Source: Streptomyces roseoviridis
Lineage (GTDB): Bacteria > Actinomycetota > Actinomycetes > Streptomycetales > Streptomycetaceae
Direction: 5' to 3'
DNA: 64,000 bases
Assembly (NCBI RefSeq): GCF_039535235.1
Contig: NZ_BAAAWU010000001.1
Span: forward strand, 4,278,001-4,342,000
This document shows, in pieces, positions 55,904 to 57,664 of the stretch. A model generated the notes under the pieces. That model saw only the letters and a list, made by a program, of their open reading frames with translations. It did not search any database and was not told where the DNA came from. Each line of letters begins with the position of its first letter. The stretch's first letter is position 1. The translations under genes were made by a program, and so were the position numbers.

Positions 55904-55945
55904 GGGGCCTCTGCGACGGTGCCCCCGGCAGGATTCGAACCTGCG
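55904..55945. repeat. att-like copy of the tRNA-Arg 3' end (left)
   Basis: 42 bp nearly identical (40/42) to 56587-56628. They include the T-arm, acceptor strand and CCA of tRNA-Arg plus the flank ggggcctctgcg. Beyond it the sequence diverges from a tRNA. It fits the distal attachment site of an element integrated at tRNA-Arg. Confidence 0.75.
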
Positions 55946-56026
55946 GGACATCTGCTCCAGGAGTTCGGTCGGGGTGCCGTTGGGCTGCTGCTCGCGGCTG
56001 CTGCGAGGAGCCGTGGTGGACTGCTG

Positions 56027-56275
56027 TCATCCACCGTCGTTGATGTCGGTCGTGGATGTCGGCGGTCGGCGGCCTGCGAACGGCCGGTGATAGTCCGACG
56101 CCTCCCCGATCGGGGGGTAGTCCCGGCCGAACACCACGTAGACGGGGTGCTCGGGGTCGCCGGCTTCCATCATGGCGAAGATGTCCACGTCGTGGTTCGC
56201 GAACCGGTGCAGATACTGGATGAAGAGCTCAAGCTCCTCGTCAGACAGCCGCTCGTCGTGCCGTTGGTTGTGCAT
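56027..56275 (-). CDS. Small hypothetical protein inside the att-flanked relic
   Basis: An 82-aa acidic protein (DERLSDEELELFIQYLHRFAN, VYVVFGRDYPPIGEASDY). ATG 56275 has a G-run ribosome site. It follows the GntR relic on the same strand, within the 641-bp segment between the two att-like repeats, so it is probably a surviving gene of the former integrative element. Its end (PPTSTTDINDGG) runs into GTCGTGGATGTC-type repeats. No family is recognised. Confidence 0.55.
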   Translation of the reverse strand: MHNQRHDERLSDEELELFIQYLHRFANHDVDIFAMMEAGDPEHPVYVVFGRDYPPIGEASDYHRPFAGRRPPTSTTDINDGG

Positions 56276-56289
56276 GTCGCCCCCCCGCT

Positions 56290-56490
56290 GACGGTTGATC
56301 GGAATCGTAGAGGATCTCGCACAGGGCGGCGGGGACGACGATGTCCGCCGTCTCGACGGGGCGCCCGTGGTCGCTTTAGTACGTCCGCCGGACGCCAGTC
56401 AGCTCGTCGACCTCGACCTGAATGGCGGTCTCCTCTCCACCACTACCGGGGGCAGCGTCGACTACGGACAGTAGCGCGACCGGCGTCGTG
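56290..56490 (-). pseudogene. GntR-family (UTRA) regulator relic with nonsense codon
   Basis: One minus-strand frame reads IQVEVDELTGVRRTY, then a TAA stop (56376-56378), then SDHGRPVETADIVVPAALCE and ILYDSD. This is the C-terminal ligand-domain ending of GntR/UTRA regulators such as the KorSA-type proteins of actinomycete integrative elements, where the stop replaces an expected Tyr. The DNA-binding half is absent. The gene is therefore dead. It lies in the 324-bp gap between the small hypothetical gene and tRNA-Arg. Confidence 0.7.
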
Positions 56491-56564
56491 CGGGGCGCCG
56501 TGGAGCCCGATCATGGAGTGGCCGCCGTTGATGTCAGCCGTGGACGTCAGTCGTGGATGTCAAA

Positions 56565-56592
56565 GGCCCCCCACCGAGATCGGCAGGGGGCC
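56565..56592 (-). terminator. Terminator of tRNA-Arg
   Basis: GGCCCCC (56565-56571) pairs with GGGGGCC (56586-56592), with an inner CCGA/TCGG pair. On the minus strand it is followed by TTT, 8 bp after the CCA end. Confidence 0.65.
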
Positions 56593-56628
56593 TCTGCGCT
56601 GGTGCCCCCGGCAGGATTCGAACCTGCG
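56587..56628. repeat. att-like repeat at the tRNA-Arg 3' end (right)
   Basis: Partner of 55904-55945, overlapping the 3' half of the intact tRNA gene. Confidence 0.75.
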
Positions 56629-56675
56629 ACACCCGCTTTAGGAGAGCGGTGCTCTATCCCCTGAGCTACGAAGGC
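56600..56675 (-). tRNA. tRNA-Arg (anticodon CCU), CCA encoded
   Basis: Full cloverleaf on the minus strand. The acceptor GCCTTCG pairs with CGGGGGC, discriminator A, and CCA is genome-encoded (56600-56602). The anticodon stem CCGCT/AGCGG carries loop CTCCTAA, giving anticodon CCU for the AGG codon; the T-arm is GCAGG-TTCGAAT-CCTGC. The gene is intact and is the apparent insertion target of the neighbouring element relic. The 211 bp up to the next gene are G-rich with nothing recognised. Confidence 0.96.
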
Positions 56676-56886: not shown

Positions 56887-57597
56887 GTGAAGGTAGAGAT
56901 CTGGTCGGACATCACGTGCCCCTGGTGCTACGTCGCCCAGGCCCGGTTCGAGAAGGCGCTGGACGCCTTCCCGCACCGCGCGGGTGTCGAAGTGGTGCAC
57001 AAGTCGTACGAGTTGGAGCCGGGACGGGCCAAGGGGGATGTGGAGCCCATCATCAAGGTGCTCATGAAGGGGAAGGGGTGGAGCGAGGCGCAGGCGCTCG
57101 CCAACGAGCGGAACCTCACCGCCCAGTCCGCCGGCGAGGGGCTGCCGTACGTCGCCGGGCGCGACCACGGGAGCACCTTCCACATCCACCGGCTGCTGCA
57201 CTTCGCCAAGGCCCGCGGCAAGCAGCACGAGCTCGTGAAGGCGCTCTACCGGGCCAACTTCGCCGAGGAGGAGTCGATCTTCGTCGACGACGAGCGGCTC
57301 GTCGCGCTGGCCGTCGAGGTCGGCCTCGACGCCGACGCCGCCCGCGCCGTGCTCGCCGCCCCGAACGCCTACGCCGACGACGTCCGCGCCGACGAGCGCG
57401 AGGCGGCGCAACTCGGCGTCTCCGGCGTGCCGTTCTTCGTCTTCGACCGGCAGTACGGCGTCTCCGGCGCCCAGTCCGCCGAGGCGTTCACCCGGGCCCT
57501 CACCCAGGCCTGGGGCGACCGTCCCCCGCTCCTGACCGTCGCCGGCGCCGAGGACGCCCACGCGTGCGGGCCGGACGGGTGCCCCGTCCCCCACTGA
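56887..57597 (+). CDS. DsbA-family oxidoreductase (FrnE-like)
   Basis: A 236-aa thioredoxin-fold protein starting VEIWSDITCPWCYVAQARFE, with the redox motif Cys11-Pro-Trp-Cys14, the cis-Pro loop GVSGVPFFVFDRQYGVSGAQ, and a C-terminal Cys pair (ACGPDGCPV). No signal peptide, so it is cytoplasmic, like polyketide-cluster FrnE proteins and 2-hydroxychromene-2-carboxylate isomerase relatives. GTG 56887 has GAGAGG upstream; the longer open frame upstream is G-rich non-coding DNA. Confidence 0.92.
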   Translation: MKVEIWSDITCPWCYVAQARFEKALDAFPHRAGVEVVHKSYELEPGRAKGDVEPIIKVLMKGKGWSEAQALANERNLTAQSAGEGLPYVAGRDHGSTFHIHRLLHFAKARGKQHELVKALYRANFAEEESIFVDDERLVALAVEVGLDADAARAVLAAPNAYADDVRADEREAAQLGVSGVPFFVFDRQYGVSGAQSAEAFTRALTQAWGDRPPLLTVAGAEDAHACGPDGCPVPH

Positions 57598-57614: not shown

Positions 57615-57664
57615 ACGGACGCCATGGGCGGTCCTCCTCCGGGAGGACCGCCCATGGCGTCCGT
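57615..57664. terminator. 23-bp-stem terminator after the DsbA-family gene
   Basis: Perfect inverted repeat, arms 57615-57637 and 57642-57664, loop of 4; the longest perfect hairpin noted in the window. Confidence 0.9.

Follow-up and report, generated by a model that had tools for sequence, protein, structure and literature searches.

A 0.7-kb segment beside a tRNA-Arg(CCU) gene of Streptomyces roseoviridis, very probably the deletion remnant of an AICE

We analysed a 64-kb stretch of Streptomyces roseoviridis DNA (the window), in which a single tRNA gene, tRNA-Arg(CCU), was found. The 3′ end of this gene is the right copy of a near-perfect 42-nt direct repeat (55904-55945 and 56587-56628), the two copies being identical at 40 of 42 positions and spaced 683 bp apart, with an unbroken identity of 28 nt (55918-55945 in the left copy). 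A chance origin of the repeat was ruled out by single-base shuffling of the left flank, as the top 42-nt match in 300 shuffles reached 26 positions, against 40 in the real sequence. A third exact copy of the 27-nt T-arm sequence was found inside tRNA-Arg(CCG) of the same genome, indicating that the T-arm alone is not diagnostic. Copy counts of this sequence, which matched in 389/392 genomes, were therefore left out as a measure of occupancy. The features of the locus are given below, those of the segment in the order in which they follow one another on the minus strand from the tRNA gene with attL leftwards (numbers with G and L denote compared genomes and loci).

56887-57597, plus strand: DsbA-family gene (domain match), the right chromosomal neighbour
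56600-56675, minus strand: tRNA-Arg(CCU), the integration target, intact (tRNA gene search)
56602-56644, minus strand: 43-nt att core inside the tRNA gene (attL), intact
56565-56592, minus strand: terminator-like inverted repeat followed by T residues, found by eye; L069, L085 and L122 have a comparable hairpin after the tRNA
56526-56561, minus strand: three direct repeats of the GACATCMACG type with a 13-bp step, one carrying one mismatch; putative arm-type sites, attL side
56438-56525, no strand assigned: 88-nt stretch
56391-56435, minus strand: 45-nt NUDIX hydrolase gene fragment fused to the GntR relic (14/15 aa and 86.7% DNA identity to the NUDIX gene of the G098 element)
56283-56392, minus strand: what remains of the C-terminus of a GntR/UTRA regulator, interrupted by an in-frame stop near 56376-56378 (domain names taken from the G004 homologue)
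56027-56275, minus strand: small ORF of 82 aa, open, of no known family, its last codons running through the arm repeats as in relatives
56038-56060, minus strand: two direct repeats, GACATCCACG and GACATCAACG, with a 13-bp step (motif scan); putative integrase arm-type sites, attR side
55946-55970, minus strand: anticodon-side half of the attR core, decayed
55904-55945, minus strand: the left repeat copy, made up of the tRNA 3′ end and the bases after it; attR scar, aligning with the attR of L069 and L128
53986-55869, plus strand: gene for a 627-aa membrane-type protein without a Pfam or NCBIfam match, the left chromosomal neighbour

Little is left of the regulator, for which about 33 C-terminal residues could be aligned. 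Among the 20 of 121 matched records listed from a plasmid DNA search, two Streptomyces records matched the GntR-relic part, and one of them was annotated as GntR. The 88-nt stretch gave no convincing match in sequence comparisons, and although 56434-56529 weakly matched an integrase gene (L122), this match was set aside because its orientation was wrong relative to the tRNA. Neither int, rep nor tra was found between the repeats in the ORF list, in the six-frame reading or by tblastn (E 1e-8) against the 3.2-kb locus (L088), searches which very short fragments would escape, and no xis was found there in the ORF list. Of what defines a functional AICE, we thus found in the 0.65-kb interval no recombinase (int) with excisionase, no FtsK/SpoIIIE-type tra, and neither a RepSA match nor another candidate ORF for a replication initiator. 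Three integrase matches were identified in the whole genome, one being an 81% C-terminal piece at a tRNA-Val remnant and the other two reaching 26-28%, and no intact integrase of the element's family was found in the genome.

Near both ends of the segment, the GTGGATGTC repeats are placed where integrase arm sites belong, and on position and motif they are best read as putative arm-type sites that an integrase would bind. The exact motif GACATCMACG occurs four times in the window, in all four cases within the two end clusters; when one mismatch was allowed, 21 matches were counted versus 7.3 expected (shuffled mean). The exact motif was present in 10 of the 12 other loci scanned and absent in L086 and L123. 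It adjoins the att ends of tRNA-Arg and tRNA-Val elements, e.g. in L069, L128, L068, L085 and L122, and matches without a tie to an att end were found as well (L119 6862/6875, L120 9891, L121 13519, L122 897 and L124 15408). Altogether, the first-pass annotation had described a near-perfect 42-bp repeat of the tRNA 3′ end at a distance of 683 bp, direct GTGGATGTC-type repeats at both ends, and the loss of the integrase, rep and transfer genes, all of which were borne out, the end repeats as two units on the left and three on the right. The dead GntR/UTRA regulator and the small ORF that it placed between the copies were both recovered, the former being refined to its few residues and to the fused 15-aa NUDIX fragment, which had gone unnamed.

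The segment lies at the 3′ end of a tRNA gene between flanking direct repeats, as is characteristic of AICEs. In the window attR, the T-arm half of the core is unchanged, and the anticodon-side half, compared by eye with the intact core, carries substitutions and two extra bases. This decayed half contains AGCAGATGTC, which is identical to the tRNA-Val att core and differs from the tRNA-Arg core, so that simple decay accounts for it only via coincidence. The attR core looks hybrid, with a tRNA-Arg T-arm half and a tRNA-Val-like anticodon half. In the relatives, the att cores start at CTCCTAA in the anticodon loop.

We then compared the locus with fuller relatives at the same tRNA, a check proposed in the first-pass annotation, and found them in G098, G004 and Streptomyces griseoluteus NRRL ISP-5360, each with the same left neighbour gene. 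G098 (L134, L085), whose neighbour gene shares 86% aa identity over 567 residues, carries a 15.8-kb AICE with int, xis, a pSAM2-type RepSA, an FtsK-type Tra, NUDIX and GntR regulators between identical 44-nt att cores (genome coordinates: attR 4654666-4654709, attL 4670466-4670509). Its first GntR gene (4656008-4656763) and its NUDIX gene (4663009-4663476) are followed by a second GntR-type gene, the FtsK-type tra, RepSA, xis, int and attL. By analogy only, the second GntR-type gene, 30% to the first GntR protein, may be likened to pSAM2 KorSA. Pfam and NCBIfam supported RepSA, FtsK and NUDIX for the G098 proteins; for int, excisionase and GntR/UTRA, the support came from the G004 homologues. 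The G098 Rep scored 849 bits with NCBIfam RepSA against a cut-off of 700, and the earlier label 'pSAM2-like' was thus right for replication; the target of pSAM2 is tRNA-Pro. By its gene set of tyrosine integrase, excisionase, RepSA, FtsK-type Tra, GntR regulators and NUDIX, the G098 element resembles pSAM2/RepSA-type AICEs, from which the window copy differs in having no int, xis, rep or tra.

The fragment order NUDIX, GntR, attR is common to the window and G098. However, no match of the small ORF was listed for G098 and none was found in L085, and the G098 attR is separated from the neighbour gene by about 8 kb of other genes, so that the exact parent element was not found. G004 (L069) has int, xis, a RepSA-like gene, a GntR gene and identical 48-nt att cores 11.1 kb apart, and its tra is truncated at the N-terminus, showing that this element is itself damaged. 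S. griseoluteus (L128) shares the tRNA, the neighbour gene, the small ORF and GntR, and is half-decayed: its integrase is split among several frames and lies some 3.7 kb from the tRNA, with other genes in between. The right half of the window feature aligned with it over 417 nt at 83% (345/417), spanning the small ORF, the arm repeats and the attR core. G186 (L120) has retained the small ORF and, at the tRNA, the C-terminus of an integrase, and an attR core was not detected there, while G294 (L123) has kept the small ORF and showed no exact arm motif and no attR match. Compared by sequence, the locus appears as a graded decay across relatives, with the window copy near the end of the series.

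The window thus contains both att sites, and its gene fragments are homologous to parts of an AICE at the same site and keep their order. We conclude that the 0.7-kb segment is very probably what deletions have left of an AICE that a tyrosine recombinase inserted in the 3′ half of tRNA-Arg(CCU), and the occurrence of same-family elements at the same tRNA bears out the earlier reading of a relic of an integrative element. When tyrosine recombinases that target tRNA genes integrate via the anticodon-loop half, the tRNA is restored (attL), and its former 3′ end is moved to the opposite side (attR). Here, an incoming AICE would have left the tRNA with arm repeats as attL and the displaced 3′ end with arm repeats as attR. 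At least three internal deletions would then have taken place, one covering int and all that followed it as far as NUDIX, one the bulk of NUDIX plus the GntR N-terminus, and one the sequence from GntR to the small ORF. Subsequent changes in the crossover half of attR, together with the loss of the integrase, would have fixed the remnant in place. The anticodon-side changes of attR should block strand exchange, and as the genome yielded no intact family integrase, the relic is most likely unable to leave the site. It is probably inactive now, apart from leaving a normal tRNA as a landing site for new AICEs.

There is a slim chance that the remnant is a minimal non-autonomous element, whose retained arm sites and attL would continue to capture arriving AICEs of the tRNA-Arg and tRNA-Val types or to exchange with them, the hybrid-looking attR then recording an exchange between the two occupied sites of the genome. 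In a related proposal, which we consider very improbable, the segment would be CIME-like, so that the integrase of an incoming AICE could excise its 0.65 kb, or mobilise it after tandem integration. The segment resembles a CIME in having lost the recombination genes and kept two att sites, its attL core is retained along with the two sets of arm repeats, and the available part of PMC9513070 raises possible cis mobilisation of such remains. However, the attR core is damaged in the very half where the crossover is expected, an intact helper integrase of the family was not found in the genome, and the segment, unlike a CIME, has no cargo of evident use.

The small ORF is open and might, through a host function, be the reason why the remnant was kept. 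It matched no family in Pfam, NCBIfam or PHROGs, and tblastn (E 1e-5) gave no match in 72,556 plasmid or 50,697 phage records. Its homologues were identified in 41/392 genomes of the genus, the own genome counted. The dN/dS of the window copy against six relatives was 0.12-0.29, a measure unable to tell selection before decay from selection after, and the 15 pairs among the six relatives gave 0.15-0.90, mostly in the same range. This overlap means that the constraint may wholly predate decay and implies no host function. Moreover, dS to S. griseoluteus was 0.40 for the small ORF versus 0.49 for the neighbour gene, as fits plain inheritance, and 351/392 genomes of the genus had no match. A remnant kept for a host function of the small ORF is thus very unlikely. 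The agreement of the two dS values is consistent with one insertion inherited by the window genome and S. griseoluteus; separate insertions of the same family may also have occurred in the two lineages.

In 15-20 kb read around the small ORF at 13 loci (L083, L118-L126 and L128-L130), the family integrase was matched in seven and not found in six (L083, L118, L121, L123, L125 and L130), indicating that the small ORF alone is no proof of a mobile context. This, together with the terminator-like inverted repeat after both copies, is what a tandem tRNA duplicate with ordinary chromosomal genes in between would lead one to expect, but we regard such an origin as extremely unlikely, because the left copy extends inwards into element sequence that aligns with the attR ends of relatives (L069, L128), has no preceding 5′ tRNA half and runs into the small ORF and arm repeats, and because, in G004, G098, G133 and S. 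griseoluteus, elements that carry int are bounded by identical 43-48-nt cores.

A deletion remnant of an AICE at this position agrees with published descriptions. In the available text of PMC9513070, decayed AICEs of a Streptomyces population retain a partial integrase, cargo and repeats, with a degree of decay that varies by strain; accretion is described for a tRNA-Arg gene where a remnant is shared, as are AICEs at tRNA-Val. The relic resembles these DAICEs and AICE traces in its remains between att repeats, strain-graded decay and tRNA-Arg accretion with a remnant in common; unlike the DAICEs of Figure 4 of that source, as far as its available text goes, which keep a truncated integrase, it has none that we found, and one att core is itself damaged. 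The accessible part of PMC4891641 places pSAM3 in a tRNA-Arg gene with 21-bp repeats. In that of PMC3218068, NUDIX (Pif) and GntR (KorSA) are associated with AICEs, and fragments with two or fewer key components are set aside and taken for probable AICE remnants, prophages, transposons or islands of another kind. As AICE decay and tRNA-Arg accretion are already published (PMC9513070, available text), the window relic is an ordinary case of a known genomic fossil. It represents a late step in the decay series that a single AICE family shows at a single tRNA across Streptomyces, from the AICE gene set through a half-decayed element and an integrase stub to an att scar only. Arm-type repeats can reveal such remains once all mobility genes are gone, which is of value for annotation and adds no new principle.

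The membrane-protein gene also adjoins the site in G098, G004, G015, G186, G294 and S. griseoluteus. The distance from the tRNA to this gene varies among relatives between about 0.9 kb in G010 and about 93 kb in G025, identifying the site as an insertion hot spot; in several relatives, the two lie on different contigs or are otherwise oriented to each other. In G010 (L071:4977-5869), where the tRNA and neighbour are the same, the 3′ end of the tRNA recurs in diverged form (43 nt, 88%) at a distance of about 0.8 kb from it, perhaps as an independent att scar of similar size. In G315 (L118:9601-9900), the element end continues through CTCCTAAAG and then departs from the tRNA sequence, which suggests a secondary site or a rearranged attR. 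On the other side of the window locus, the DsbA gene is followed at 57615-57664 by a perfect 23-bp inverted repeat with a 4-nt loop, terminator-like in appearance. Elsewhere in the same genome, an AICE-derived segment lies at tRNA-Val(UAC) (L068:8442-14795; G000:C1 about 5316442-5322795), with identical 49-nt att cores 6.3 kb apart and arm repeats, and of its integrase only a C-terminal piece is left, which abuts a NUDIX fragment. Judged by these features, it would be a better candidate for a cis-mobilisable element than the tRNA-Arg relic.
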